The notes below the pieces were generated by a model. The model saw only the letters and a list, made by a program, of their open reading frames with translations, ran no database searches and had not been told where the DNA came from. Made by a program: the position numbers and the translations under genes. Shown here one piece after another: positions 54,582 through 61,822 of a stretch of DNA of 64,000 bases (positions are counted from its first letter, which is position 1; every line of letters begins with the position of its first letter). This DNA comes from an uncultured Bacteroidales bacterium (GTDB taxonomy: Bacteria; Bacteroidota; Bacteroidia; Bacteroidales; Bacteroidaceae), in the NCBI GenBank assembly GCA_902779875.1, contig CACZCX010000018.1, positions 1 to 64,000 of the forward strand, read 5' to 3'.

Positions 54582-54608
54582 AGGTTGGAATCTTTCCAAC
54601 CTTTTTTT
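54582..54608 (+). terminator. Rho-independent terminator after rpsT
   Basis: AGGTTGGAA (54582-54590) pairs with TTCCAACCT (54594-54602), followed by a run of T residues to 54608. The same hairpin type appears at the equivalent edge of the second repeat copy. Confidence 0.87.
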
Positions 54609-54880
54609 GTTTCTAATTCGCACTTGGTTTCCAGTTGCACCCAGTAAAACTAAGGCCTCGCGAGCAAAGCTAGCGAGGTCTTAGTTTTACCCGGCCGGAG
54701 GCCGGCAGAGTGGAGTGGGATTATATCCCGCGGAACGGGTTTGGGGCGCCGCCGCCCCAAACTAAAAAAATGTCGTGTATCTAATACGCAGATAAGATCC
54801 TGTCCCGGACTTTTGGCCCGAAGGGCCCAAAAAGTCAAAAAACAACCGAGCTGCGAAGCAGCGAGTCTCTGCCGGATGGC
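54582..54880 (+). repeat. Multi-hairpin repeat, copy 1 (inverted copy at 61520-61822)
   Basis: About 300 bp fill the gap between rpsT and the convergent gyrB stop. The same sequence occurs, reversed and complemented and nearly identical over about 240 bp, at 61520-61822. Hairpins in order: terminator 54582-54608; an 18-bp stem GTAAAACTAAG... (54644-54661/54673-54690); CCGGCC/GGCCGG (54691-54705); GGGAT/ATCCC (54717-54729); GTTTGGGGCG/CGCCCCAAAC (54739-54762); GACTTTT...AAAAGTC (54808-54836); and GCTGC/GCAGC (54850-54862). Both strands have incidental open frames through it, but no gene is supported. Confidence 0.85.
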
Positions 54881-54884
54881 CTAC

Positions 54885-56840
54885 TTACGCGTCGATGTTT
54901 GCATAGGTTGCGTTGCGTTCAATGAACTCCCTGCGTGTACCTACATCCTCGCCCATCAGCATAGAGAATATGCGGTCGGCCTCGGCTGCATCCTGGATGT
55001 GAACCTGCTTGAGCAGACGGTTCTCGGGGTTCATTGTGGTGTCCCAGAGCTGCTCGGGGTTCATCTCACCCAGACCTTTATAGCGCTGTGTTATGATGTT
55101 TGATTCCAGTCCTGCACCATACTGGTCGATGAAACGCTGGCGCTGTACATCATCATAGCAGTACTCCTTGACCTTGCCCTTGGTGCACAGATAGAGAGGC
55201 GGGGTTGCTATGTAGAGGTGTCCCTGCTCAATGAGTTCCGGCATATAGCGGAAGAACAGTGTCATGATAAGGGTGTCAATGTGTGAGCCGTCGACATCGG
55301 CATCGGTCATGATGATTACCTTATAATAACGCAGCTTGTCATAGTTGGCGGCCTTGGAGTCATCGGGGTTAAGACCGAAACGTACGCCCAGAGCCTGTAT
55401 GATGTTGTTTACCTCCTCATGGTCGAATGCCTTGTGCCACATTACGCGCTCCACGTTGAAAATCTTACCGCGGATAGGCAGGATGGCCTGGGTGTGGCGG
55501 TCACGACCCTGCTTGGCGCTACCGCCTGCAGAGTCACCCTCAACTATAAAGAGCTCGCAGTTGGCCGGATCCTTATCGGAGCAGTCGGCAAGTTTGCCGG
55601 GAAGTCCGCTGCCTGAGAGCGGGCTCTTGCGCTGTACGCTCTCGCGTGCCTTGCGGGCGGCTACACGTGCCTGGGCTGCCAGGATAACCTTCTCAACAAT
55701 CATCTTAGCCTCCTTGGGATGCTCCTCCAGATAGAAAGTAAGAGCCTCGCCTACTGCCTGCTGAACGGCACCGGCAACCTCAGAGTTACCGAGTTTGGTC
55801 TTGGTCTGACCCTCGAACTGGGGCTCTGCTACCTTGACAGAGATTACTGCGGTAAGACCCTCGCGGAAATCCTCACCCTCAATCTCGACCTTGGCTTTCT
55901 CAAGGAACTTGTTGTCATCGGCGTATTTCTTGAGGGTGCGTGTGAGCGCGGTGCGGAAACCTACAAGATGGGTACCGCCTTCTATGGTGTTGATGTTGTT
56001 TACGAATGAACGGATGGTCTCCTTATACTCGGTGTTGTAGAGGATGGCGACCTCAATGGGTACACCCTGCTTCTCGGTGTTAAGGTAAATAGGATCCGGG
56101 ATAAGGTGAACGCGGTTCTCATCTATGTAGCTTACGAACTCCTTGAGGCCCTCATTCGAGAAATATACATCCTTCTTGGGCTCTCCCTCCTCCATGACAC
56201 GGTAGTCGGTGAGTGATATCTTGAGGCCTGCGTTCAGGAATGCAAGCTCATGCAGACGGGCAGCCAGGATATCGTATTTATATTCAGTCGTGGTGAATAT
56301 CGAGCCATCGGGCCAGAAGGTCTGGCGGGTTCCGTTGATATCGGTGGTGCCTACGCACTCAACTGCTGTCACGGGCTTACCGCAGGCGTACTCCTGACGG
56401 TATACCTTGCCGTCACGGAACACCTCGGTGATCATCTTGGTGGAGAGGGCGTTTACGCACGATACACCTACGCCGTGCAGACCGCCTGACACCTTGTATG
56501 ATCCCTTGTCGAACTTACCTCCGGCGTGAAGCACGGTCATTACAACCTCAAGGGCTGACTTGTGCTCCTTGGGGTGCATGTCAACCGGGATACCACGACC
56601 GTTATCCTGGACGGTTATGGAGCCGTCCTCGTTGATGGCTACCTCTATGTGTGTGCAGTAACCGGCCATGGACTCGTCGATGGAGTTGTCGACCACCTCA
56701 TATACCAAATGATGCAGGCCCTTTTCACTTATGTCACCTATGTACATGGCAGGGCGTTTACGCACTGCCTCAAGGCCTTCCAGCACCTGAATGTTAGACG
56801 CTGAGTAGTTCGCCTGACCGTTGTTGATTTCGTCTGTCAT
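54885..56840 (-). CDS. gyrB: DNA gyrase subunit B
   Basis: A 651-residue ATPase subunit of type II topoisomerase, introducing negative supercoils with GyrA. The GHKL ATPase domain has [13 protein letters not shown] and [11 protein letters not shown], then GGLHGVG. The transducer leads to the TOPRIM domain with [15 protein letters not shown] (about residues 425-440) and [11 protein letters not shown]. The C-terminal part has [15 protein letters not shown]. The start codon at 56840 puts AMYIGD at residues 32-37. It is convergent with rpsT across repeat copy 1 and divergent from the first XRE-cupin gene. Confidence 0.96.
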
Positions 56841-59847: not shown

Positions 59848-59852
59848 GAAAC

Positions 59853-61520
59853 ATGTTAGAGAAATACCTGAAGAAAGTTGAGTTCGATTCACTGGAGGAT
59901 TTCCAGAAGAACTTTGAGATAATTGTTCCTGAAAACTTCAATTTCGGCTATGACGTAGTCGATGAGTGGGCCAGGACAAATCCGGATAAGCTGGCTCTGC
60001 TCTGGACCAATGACGAGGGCGCCGAAGTCCGCTATACTTTTGCAGACATAAAGCGCAAGTCAGACCAGGTGGCTGCGTTCTACCAGTCTCTGGGCATAGG
60101 CCGCGGTGACTGCGTGATGATGATGCTCAAGCGTCGCGCCGAGTTCTGGTTCTCAATCGTGGCTCTGCATAAGCTGGGTGCCGTGGCCATCCCCGCTACC
60201 CACCTGCTCACCCCCAAGGACCTTATATATAGGGCCAACTCAGCCAAGATTAAGATGATTGTGAGTGCCGATGAGCCCATCATGATACAGCATGTGAATG
60301 ACTGCCTCAAGGATGCTCCTTCGGTAAAGGTTCTGGTCGCTACCGGTTCATATAACAAGGACGGATGGCACAGCATGGATGAGGGTATGAAAAACGCCCC
60401 TGAATTTGTGCGTCCTGCCAAGGTCAACGATAATCATGACATATCACTGCTCTATTTTACGTCTGGCTCAAGCGGTAACCCCAAGATGGTCGCTCACAAC
60501 TTCCTCTATCCGCTGGGTCACATTGTTACAGCCAAGTACTGGCACAACGTAAACGAGCAGAGCCTGCATCTTACCGTAGCCGATACCGGTTGGGGTAAGG
60601 CTGTCTGGGGCAAGCTCTACGGTCAGTGGCTCTCAGGTGCTGCGGTATTCGTATATGACCACGAGAAGTTCACTCCCGCCAATATACTGGCTGCTATGGC
60701 CAAGTACCGCGTGACTTCATTCTGCGCACCTCCCACCATATACCGTTATCTGATCCGCGAGGATCTTAGCCAGTATGACCTGAGTGCGCTCAAGTATTGC
60801 ACTACCGCCGGCGAGCCTCTCAACCCGAGTGTATTCGAGTTCTGGAAGGAGCATACCGGTCTGGATATCCACGAGGGATTCGGTCAGACTGAGACTGCAA
60901 TGACCATCGGTACATTCCCCTGGATGACTCCCAAACCCGGATCACTGGGTGTACCCAACCCCGCATATGACATGGACCTTCTCACAAACGACGGCCGTTC
61001 CGCAGAGGACGGTGAGAGCGGTGAGATAATCCTGCATACCGATAAGCGTCTGCCTCTGGGTCTGTTTGAGGAGTATTATCACAACCCCGAGCTGACCAAG
61101 ACGGTTCATTATAACGGTATTTATCACACCGGTGACGTGGCTTGGCGTGACGGTGACGGTTACTACTGGTTTGTAGGCCGTACCGATGACGTCATCAAGA
61201 GCTCCGGTTACCGCATCGGACCGTTCGAGGTCGAGAGTGCCCTGATGACACACCCCGCTGTTGTGGAGTGCGCCGTTACAGGTGTTCCCGATGAGGTGCG
61301 CGGCCAGGTGGTAAAGGCTACCATCATCCTTGCCAAGGAGTATAAGGATTATCCCGATAAGGAGGCGCTGATCAAGGAGATCCAGGATCACGTCAAGAAG
61401 GTATCGGCCCCTTACAAGTATCCGCGTGTAGTGGAGTTTGTTGAGGAACTTCCTAAAACGATCAGCGGCAAGATTAAGCGCGTGGAGATCCGCAACAAGG
61501 ACGCTGAGGCTGCTAAGTGA
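59853..61520 (+). CDS. AMP-forming acyl-CoA ligase (acetyl-CoA synthetase/ACSM-like), second of two
   Basis: A 555-residue ANL-superfamily ligase. The ATP-binding motif YFTSGSSGNPKMV (about residues 202-214), EGFGQTETAM, TGDVAWRDGDGYYWFVGRTDDVIKSSG-type motifs and the C-terminal PKTISGKIKRV Lys are present. The sequence resembles medium-chain acyl-CoA synthetases and acetyl-CoA synthetases more than FadD. The nearby 2-oxoacid ferredoxin oxidoreductase operon suggests short or branched acyl groups. It begins 5 bp after the second regulator and ends against the second copy of the multi-hairpin repeat. Confidence 0.88.
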   Translation: MLEKYLKKVEFDSLEDFQKNFEIIVPENFNFGYDVVDEWARTNPDKLALLWTNDEGAEVRYTFADIKRKSDQVAAFYQSLGIGRGDCVMMMLKRRAEFWFSIVALHKLGAVAIPATHLLTPKDLIYRANSAKIKMIVSADEPIMIQHVNDCLKDAPSVKVLVATGSYNKDGWHSMDEGMKNAPEFVRPAKVNDNHDISLLYFTSGSSGNPKMVAHNFLYPLGHIVTAKYWHNVNEQSLHLTVADTGWGKAVWGKLYGQWLSGAAVFVYDHEKFTPANILAAMAKYRVTSFCAPPTIYRYLIREDLSQYDLSALKYCTTAGEPLNPSVFEFWKEHTGLDIHEGFGQTETAMTIGTFPWMTPKPGSLGVPNPAYDMDLLTNDGRSAEDGESGEIILHTDKRLPLGLFEEYYHNPELTKTVHYNGIYHTGDVAWRDGDGYYWFVGRTDDVIKSSGYRIGPFEVESALMTHPAVVECAVTGVPDEVRGQVVKATIILAKEYKDYPDKEALIKEIQDHVKKVSAPYKYPRVVEFVEELPKTISGKIKRVEIRNKDAEAAK

Positions 61521-61822
61521 TTGCCTCCGGCGGGGGCTCGCCGCTCCGCGGCTCGGCCTTTTTTGACTTTTGGGGCCCTTTGGGCCAAAAGTCCGGGACA
61601 GGATCCTATCTGCGTATTAGATACACGACCTTTTTTTAGTTTGGGGCGGCGGCGCCCCAAACCCGTTCAGCGGGATTATATCCCGCTTCACTCTGCCGGC
61701 CTCCGGCCGGGTAAAACTAAGACCTCGCTAGCTTTGCTCGCGAGGCCTTAGTTTTACTGGGTGCAACTGGAAACCAAGTGCGGATTAGAAACAAAAAAGG
61801 TTGGATTTTGGTCCAACCTTTT
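61520..61822 (-). repeat. Multi-hairpin repeat, copy 2 (inverted copy of 54582-54880)
   Basis: This reverse-complement copy fills the space between the ligase stop and the oxidoreductase gamma gene. The region 61559-61800 differs from copy 1 at only about a dozen positions. The outer hairpin GCCGC/GCGGC (61540-61552) corresponds to GCTGC/GCAGC in copy 1, so both arms changed together and pairing was kept. GCGGGAT/ATCCCGC likewise replaces a wobble-containing stem. The order of hairpins is the same. Like copy 1, it begins at a terminator after one gene and reaches the stop codon of the convergent gene. Confidence 0.85.
61793..61822. terminator. Bidirectional terminator between the ligase and the oxidoreductase operon
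   Basis: AAAAGGTTGGA and TCCAACCTTTT (61795-61805 and 61812-61822) form an 11-bp stem with T tracts on both strands. On the minus strand it is the terminator of the oxidoreductase operon; it corresponds to the rpsT terminator at the edge of copy 1. Confidence 0.8.

Follow-up and report, generated by a model that had tools for sequence, protein, structure and literature searches.

The window analysed here is a 64,000-nucleotide stretch of a contig from an uncultured Bacteroidales bacterium (assembly GCA_902779875.1, contig CACZCX010000018.1, positions 1 to 64,000). It holds two oppositely oriented copies of a repeat, copy A between rpsT and gyrB and copy B between two genes labelled lig2 and iorB. 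The repeat, about 250 bp long and non-coding, is a dispersed cassette of modular hairpins limited to one genus of mostly rumen Bacteroidales metagenome-assembled genomes (MAGs). Its full copies keep six hairpins in a fixed order, conserve pairing while their sequence changes, and lie at gene 3' ends. Judging from sequence comparisons, we consider the chances about even that the element is a modular terminator cassette that would have spread by copying and gene conversion. If so, a spreading repeat with interchangeable hairpins would have replaced part of the terminators of this genus and would offer a natural experiment on what a terminator or 3' end has to retain (pairing, loop, tract) and what is free to vary.

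The inverted pair and its family

A repeat search of the window returned a single inverted pair of at least 60 nt, 54603-54842 against 61559-61798, with arms of 240 nt each that are 95% complementary and separated by 6,716 nt. Together with the alignment, this confirmed a first-pass annotation of the same DNA, which had described near-identical inverted repeats of about 240 bp with a recognisable outer part. On the gyrB and lig2 sides, the outer parts of both copies can be aligned and have diverged further than the 240-nt core. Both copies lie in convergent spacers, as had also been proposed (rpsT>..<gyrB and lig2>..<iorB; lig2, cup1, cup2, iorB and korA/B are labels read off the open reading frames, or ORFs, without a database search). 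Each copy has six hairpins, H2 to H7, in identical order. About seven had been counted initially; the order stands, and the seventh may be an extra terminator-like hairpin on the H2 side of both copies that belongs to the flanking gene, rpsT or iorB. The GC-rich 3' edge of copy A stops just short of the gyrB stop at 54885. The features of the window are as follows:

54582-54602, plus strand: terminator-like hairpin of rpsT, outside the repeat proper, which begins right behind it (terminator scan and sequence)
54603-54881, plus strand: copy A, with a constant core from about 54626 and a GC-rich 3' edge at 54870-54881 (repeat search, BLAST and alignment)
54644-54690, plus strand: H2 of copy A, a 47-nt hairpin entered by an A-tract and left by a T-tract, similar to bidirectional terminators; on the minus strand, the scan picks up its inner part
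54691-54705, plus strand: H3 of copy A, CCGGCC(GGA)GGCCGG, nearly invariant, with a GNA triloop
54710-54736, plus strand: H4 of copy A, a slot with interchangeable hairpins, here a GC-rich palindrome and elsewhere of the TGGAA type
54739-54762, plus strand: H5 of copy A, GTTTGGGGCG..CGCCCCAAAC and then TAAAAAAA
54763-54807, plus strand: A-run and constant linker (CTAATACGCAGATA..) of copy A
54808-54836, plus strand: H6 of copy A, GACTTTT..AAAAGTC and then an A-run
54846-54865, minus strand: H7 of copy A, the hairpin closest to the gyrB stop, followed by TTGTTTTTTG
54885-56840, minus strand: gyrB, the convergent neighbour at the H7 side of copy A
61523-61798, minus strand: copy B, inverted relative to copy A (repeat search, BLAST and alignment)
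61537-61556, plus strand: H7 of copy B, the hairpin closest to the lig2 stop, followed by CCTTTTTTGA and missed by the simple terminator scan
61565-61593, minus strand: H6 of copy B
61639-61662, minus strand: H5 of copy B
61696-61710, minus strand: H3 of copy B
61711-61757, minus strand: H2 of copy B, its inner part terminator-like on the plus strand according to the scan
61794-61823, minus strand: terminator-like hairpin at the iorB end, not part of the repeat itself (terminator scan)

In the window's own genome (G000; G and L numbers denote genomes and loci), an assembly of 2.14 Mb in 74 contigs that is 86.5% complete, BLAST with copy A matched 13 places. Subtracting three antisense half-matches inside listed copies leaves ten loci, seven of them nearly full length. 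Within the genus, BLAST found the element in 14 of 37 genomes, its own included, and a covariance model, R1, found it in 24 of 37 at an E value of 1e-4. R1 spans H2 to the linker and was built on 16 rows, with 11 candidate rows in which the linker pattern was missing excluded. It matched 48 times in G026, 31 times in G029, 25 times in G028 and 12 times in the window's genome, some of the weak matches being members of a cousin family described below. The further copies in this and other genomes show that the pair in the window does not stand alone, and the description of a structured dispersed element is supported by this copy number as well as by the covariation and modularity presented below.

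The host range is narrow. Across the family, 12 of 399 genomes were positive by BLAST and 14 of 301 by the covariance model under stricter filters, all of them in the same one of 30 genera; outside this genus, neither sample contained the element. An exact 22-base pattern searched against 84,980 species genomes gave 103 stretches, 102 of which carry the element by profile search; the other, L180 (Co_bin.246), was rejected as a chance match to the pattern, as the profile search finds no element there. The 102 stretches come from the MAGs RUG476, RUG11955, RUG10916, RUG11961, RUG14751, RUG14495, UBA1182, UBA1179, RGIG7837 and RGIG9993. The record titles of RGIG7837 and RGIG9993 name buffalo and yak reticulum, and the RUG series we take to be of rumen origin. 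On a tree of gyrB, lig1 and cup2, occupancy is patchy: the element is abundant in the sisters G000 and G026 and in G030, and the nearby G027, G019, G035, G032 and G009 were negative by BLAST and each matched the model weakly once or twice. The family is apparently undescribed; among the matches listed in open-access literature on Bacteroidales or Prevotella intergenic palindromic repeats, repetitive extragenic palindromic (REP) sequences, BrickBuilt and mirrored tRNA ends, no title or abstract opening describes it.

Pairing, modules and loops of the hairpins

De-duplication left 104 full copies, of which 83 are 170-260 nt long and contain the patterns of both H2 and H7; dereplication at 93% reduced these to 81, and 80 were aligned after exclusion of L059. 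The 50-pair structure was taken from copy L057, itself one of the rows, which favours it over the slid control in the number of cells paired. Paired cells amounted to 95.3% of the total, compared with 86.4% in shuffled alignments and 53.2 and 54.5% when the structure was slid by one column. Changes on both sides were seen in 20 pairs (14.3 shuffled, 8-14 slid) and in 295 cells, compared with 74 +/- 7 in shuffled alignments, none of 500 being as high (the shuffles ignore relatedness), and at most 61 in slid ones. Compensatory changes above the controls, a criterion for structured RNAs, are thus present. In one H2 pair, all four Watson-Crick combinations are found at similar counts (UA 18, AU 17, GC 17 and CG 16), and H2 has 78 distinct sequences among 100 copies. 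The change from GCTGC/GCAGC to GCCGC/GCGGC on both arms of one stem, which had first drawn attention to the pairing, is real and located in H7, and compensation extends well beyond that stem. H3 and most of H5 are uninformative on pairing because they hardly vary. RNAalifold alone predicted 22 pairs, a low count that we ascribe to hairpin slots holding non-homologous alternatives. Overall, pairing is conserved and sequence is not.

The hairpins also behave as exchangeable modules. The H2 slot is filled by one of three unrelated hairpins, each with an A-tract, a GC-rich stem and a T-tract (GTAAAAC..GTTTTAC, GTAAAAATTAAGGCGCC..GGCGCCATAATTTTTAC and AAAAAAAGGTGACCC..GGGCCACCTTTTTTT). In the H4 slot there is a GC palindrome in some copies and a TGGAA-type repeat in others, the latter presumably resembling the known DNA structure of GTGGAATGGAAC, and H5 has one of two stems with identical feet. 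Similarity matrices of H2, H3-H5, linker plus H6, and H7 over the 80 copies correlated with each other weakly or not, with r values of 0.28, 0.15, -0.10, 0.28, -0.04 and 0.02. The nearest neighbour of a copy lies in the same genome in 31 of 80 cases, compared with 12.6 expected and a permutation maximum of 24. Copies L050 and L057 have cores that are 97% alike, yet both arms of H7 and of H2 differ between them. Likewise, the core of copy A matches copy B, and at the H7 edge copy A is similar to the orthologous site at gyrB in G028, a combination that fits gene conversion and exchange of parts. Separately, in at least two copies from G029, L072 (the same place as L195) and L073, H4 is interrupted by a common insert of about 74 nt, suggesting a sub-family whose insert was copied or converted within that genome.

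The loops of these hairpins are biased to one strand. H3, H6 and H7 have 220 triloops, which on the plus strand read GNA or ANA in 198 cases and TNC or TNT in 5; H3 contributes 82 of the GNA/ANA loops from only four sequences. In the 83 copies, the H2 loop is AAA in 39, GAA in 26, GTA in 4 and TTT in 2, and was not found in 12; these numbers replace a first count by a longest-stem rule that was often wrong. H4 was kept out of the main figure (56 GNA/ANA and 5 TNC/TNT of 75), its rule allowing purine-purine pairs and leaning to the plus strand, and H5 has four-base loops, which are not evidence for a strand. In the outer 14 pairs of H2, G-T pairs outnumber A-C pairs (44 versus 15). The loop bias suggests a fold shaped for the plus strand. 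GCGAAGC has been reported as an extraordinarily stable DNA hairpin (PMC6582339), so the bias does not decide between RNA and single-stranded DNA.

Gene 3' ends, terminator anatomy and the gyrB block

The fetched loci contain 139 distinct copies, 100 with both neighbouring genes in view and 39 lacking one or both. With a gene defined as an ORF of at least 100 amino acids, a limit that misses small genes, the raw call for the 100 copies was 66 convergent, 23 tandem and sense to the upstream gene, 11 tandem and antisense, and none divergent. Gaps of 40-800 bp from these loci that served as controls (n = 288) were convergent in 40 cases, tandem in 140 and divergent in 108, giving a convergent excess with a Fisher p of about 4e-22, although copies are not independent. 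Nine of the antisense calls can be accounted for: four stand at rpsT, which is below the ORF limit, three have a co-oriented tRNA in between (Ser, Ser and Gln), and two, both in L085, involve a 106-amino-acid ORF overlapping the first piece of an adjacent pair; a 5S gene lies farther upstream there. Two (L138 and L166) are left over. In the convergent copies, the 3' edge, on the H7 side, is at most 15 nt from the opposing stop in 44 of 66, and the 5' edge is as close to the upstream stop in 27 of 66.

The hairpin nearest the opposing gene has the anatomy of an intrinsic terminator. On the minus strand, H7 is a GC-rich hairpin close behind the stop and followed by a T-run, CTCGCTGCTTCGCAGCTCGG TTGTTTTTTG at gyrB and CTCGCCGCTCCGCGGCTCGG CCTTTTTTGA at lig2, and over the 83 copies the 12 nt after H7 contain on average 6.3 T on the minus strand versus 2.0 on the plus strand. 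The same spacers in congeners offer a comparison. The rpsT-gyrB site is occupied in G000, G028, G029, G030, G033 and G034; in G002, G012 and G025 it contains one compact terminator, with 60 bp between the stops, and other congeners have different, often hairpin-rich spacers. Between lig2 and iorB, the element is present in the window's genome and in none of eight others with this spacer in view (G002, G008, G009, G023, G030, G031, G032 and G035). Read directly, this spacer in G002 is about 31 bp around one terminator, those of G032 and G035 are similarly short, and those of G031 and G009 hold a different palindromic insert. Long palindromic inserts of the GACGCAAAGGGGTCTGACCCC.. and GGGGTATACCC.. 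types were also observed at rpsT-gyrB in L191, L193 and L197 and at lig2-iorB in L236 and L250. From these other inserts, both spacers appear to hold several unrelated-looking hairpin elements. Near copy B, at 61842-62260 of the window, the iorB-like gene lacks about 120 bp near its 3' end compared with G002, and the listed ORF is out of frame there; this is either a deletion or an assembly error.

As a terminator cassette, the element would work through both of its ends. H7 and its T-run would terminate the opposing minus-strand gene, and H2, with its A-tract and T-tract, would terminate or insulate in both directions and could serve a co-oriented gene that has no terminator of its own. Between them, H3 to H6 may form a strand-specific stack of hairpins hindering readthrough or exonucleases. 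The element would spread via a copying process and then be reshaped by gene conversion and single-hairpin exchange, with pairing kept and sequence not. The first-pass suggestion of a bidirectional insulator or terminator thus holds as far as the anatomy and the compact terminators at empty sites reach.

Several observations weigh against this interpretation. The simple terminator scan reports H7 of copy A and misses that of copy B; for lig2, and besides H7 also for gyrB, it reports the inner part of H2. Being reported on the same strands, H2 may be a second terminator. Both rpsT and iorB have strong terminator-like hairpins of their own in the window, which would make H2 redundant there, and the tract polarity of H5 and H6 is wrong for termination. 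Convergent spacers would also tolerate a purely selfish element, and an earlier and cruder count based on 70-amino-acid ORFs (58 convergent, 14 sense, 4 antisense) included two divergent calls (L022 and L077). Single-stranded DNA would lead one to expect the strand bias of the GNA loops no less than RNA would. Finally, the comparison of G-T with A-C pairs was dropped as proof of a functional strand, since the excess in outer H2 vanishes over whole hairpins (H2 53/51, H6 23/31, H7 4/6).

The window also provides a concrete case of an inverted repeat pair at the ends of a gyrB block that is inverted in a sister species. The block gyrB-cup1-lig1-cup2-lig2 lies between rpsT and iorB. At 57015-61520 of the window, a regulator-like gene is followed by a ligase-like gene in two tandem pairs (names read off the ORFs), and these pairs adjoin gyrB as one block in most of 35 loci. 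In 26 of the 35 loci rpsT faces gyrB. G026, which the tree places as sister to G000, has the block inverted (L239, 3439-13107), with the order rpsT > [two tandem element pieces] < lig2 ... gyrB > < iorB; its second junction gave no profile match, and short stretches there were read as resembling the 5' leader of the element. Among the 35 loci, some of which are truncated, only that of G000 has matches at the gyrB end as well as at the lig2 end. An inverted pair such as A and B can recombine, and the inverted block in G026 is compatible with recombination between the arms, as the sequence was first taken to predict. The prediction is borne out in that the block is inverted in a sister and one of its two breakpoints carries element pieces; recombination itself is unproven. 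Moreover, G017 and G016 have rpsT facing lig2 and G011 has gyrB facing iorB, with no model match in G017 and G011 and one weak match in G016, indicating that the inversion does not need the element. G015, G022 and G024 have other gene orders, and in G001 and G023 the rpsT side is not in view.

A cousin family, competing explanations and known systems

Some copies adjoin a shorter relative, the cousin family, which consists of H3-, H4- and H5-like hairpins followed by TAAAAAAAGG. The comparison covered 40 distinct copies that have 200 nt or more of 3' flank. Of these, 28 face a convergent tRNA and none a co-oriented tRNA in the stretch examined; among the other 12, three face a 5S rRNA (L085, L281 and L288). 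Examples are found at L110:2767-2912, L088:1080-1210, L008:1634-1801 and in L276, L290, L275, L289, L015 and L287. The gap between cousin and tRNA can hold the 3' end of that same tRNA copied in inverted orientation, with match scores of up to 39. This mirror beats all 656 swapped-tRNA controls in 11 of the 28 copies, reaches the 99% level in 12 and falls below it in 16, several of the 28 being the same tRNA in related genomes. Mirrors of gene ends were also looked for in the window's own family, because the cousin has them, and were rejected: the 99% level of the swapped controls was exceeded at none of 58 downstream gene ends and at one of 50 upstream ones. In the gyrB spacers of L186 (G031), L202 (G010) and L208 (G021), a cousin-type A-run precedes a stretch that looks, on inspection by eye, like an interrupted mirror of the end of the gyrB coding sequence. 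In G031 the run is TAAAATAAGG and then a mirror-like stretch, for which an automatic search, made on L186 only, gave no exact repeat of at least 10 nt and a score of 9.

A wider conjecture, to which we give little credence at present, is that the element and its cousin form one class of terminator-building mobile cassette that colonises 3' ends and takes over resident termination. In the cousin, the mirror copy would make the gene's own end one arm of a hairpin, and copying might take place on folded plus-strand nucleic acid, by snap-back or primer-like synthesis at gene ends, and not by a classical transposase. The mirror copies at tRNA and 5S genes would also offer a new clue to how hairpin repeats originate and spread with no visible transposase.

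The strongest alternative to a terminator cassette, possible though on balance unlikely, is a selfish non-autonomous mobile DNA resembling miniature inverted-repeat transposable elements (MITEs) or REPINs, whose plus-strand hairpins would be recognised as single-stranded DNA by an enzyme acting in trans and which would merely be tolerated at gene ends. Patchy occupancy on the host tree is what such an element would leave, as are near-identical cores with sharp edges at unrelated sites (L050/L057, L060/L101 and L075/L068). The GNA triloops suit it as well, given the stability of GCGAAGC as DNA, and no feature of the hairpins requires RNA. These points and the excess of same-genome neighbours lend indirect support to the earlier idea of a mobile repeat, whereas the usual marks of transposition were not found. 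Ungapped comparison of the two consensus ends gave at most 10 matching positions and no terminal inverted repeats, and no target duplication is evident at the edges of five aligned copy pairs, compared without an intraspecies empty site. The REP-associated Y1 transposase was rejected as the mover; its distribution does not track the element, PF01797 being present in 7 of 14 BLAST-positive and 16 of 23 other genomes, all from MAGs that are incomplete. A phage or plasmid origin was likewise rejected, with no matches of the exact pattern in IMG/VR and none by blastn in plasmid and phage records. Tandem copies, in addition, are mostly sense to the upstream gene, a further point against selfish DNA.

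The sense orientation of tandem copies is instead what would be expected of a structured RNA in the 3' untranslated region that stabilises the mRNA or gives rise to small RNA; transcription from the co-oriented upstream gene would then cover the entire stack. We regard this explanation as improbable. The 23 sense against 11 antisense calls in the raw count, nine of the latter accounted for, favour it, as do the plus-strand loop bias and the G-T excess in the outer H2 pairs. However, H2 stands right behind the stop and is terminator-like, so that the remainder would be transcribed by readthrough only, and whole hairpins show no G-T strand bias. A known RNA family was also rejected: in an Rfam scan of window positions 50000-64000 with E values up to 1, no family matched the copies, the hits being one tRNA and two sub-threshold matches at the iorB-side terminator.

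A much smaller probability attaches to the view that it is chiefly intrastrand template switching in replication, and not selection, that maintains the perfect palindromes, the element being a passive by-product of hairpin-prone DNA. Template switching could explain why the H7 and H2 stems of the otherwise near-identical L050 and L057 differ on both arms, why H2 has an inverted loop in 2 of 83 copies and why the cousin family carries mirror copies of gene ends; a fixed order of six hairpins, constant linkers, loops conserved for a single strand and a location at gene ends would all be unexpected of a passive product. A recent two-copy duplication or an assembly artefact is hardly credible: the identity of A and B, at 95%, does exceed that of A with other full copies of the same genome (80-88%), but many other copies exist in 14 or more genomes, the H7 edge of A is G028-like while its core matches B, as gene conversion would give, and an artefact is unlikely because the flanks and H7 of A and B differ, a copy recurs at the same rpsT-gyrB site in five genomes (G028, G029, G030, G033 and G034) and rpsT faces gyrB in most loci.

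With a terminator cassette as the preferred reading, the element can be compared with four known systems. With the BrickBuilt MITE of Porphyromonas gingivalis, also of the Bacteroidales, it shares a narrow host range and the lack of an Rfam match; BrickBuilt is described as having 19 copies in one genome, always intergenic (PMC4596501). The same source attributes promoter activity to BrickBuilt, along with 23-nt repeats in tandem and terminal inverted repeats of the insertion-sequence type (PMC4596501). In the element no such tandem array was seen, terminal inverted repeats were not found, and an Escherichia coli-type promoter scan of both copies found none. With the structured RNAs of Rfam it has in common hairpins supported by covariation, although no family matches. 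Bidirectional intrinsic terminators resemble it in their A/T-tract hairpins and occupy the same spacers in some element-free congeners; unlike them, the element is dispersed and combines two separate terminator-like hairpins with four further ones.

The closest likeness is to REP sequences and bacterial interspersed mosaic elements (BIMEs), described as dispersed mosaic intergenic hairpins that lie downstream of coding regions, mostly between convergent or unidirectional genes (PMC3733652). The element has the same distribution (66 convergent, 34 tandem and no divergent copies of 100, with two divergent in the earlier count), so that location at gene ends is by itself not new. REP/BIME units are palindromes of 20-40 bp, often paired in opposite orientation, whereas the element has six ordered hairpins in about 250 bp and, unlike them, no association with a Y1 transposase. 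The REP tags were nearly absent from the feet of H2, H5 and H7 in 83 copies (GTAG 2, CGTC 1, GACG 1). Overall, the element is most likely a variant of the REP/BIME kind that lacks the REP hallmarks tested and carries terminator-like hairpins for the genes that flank it.

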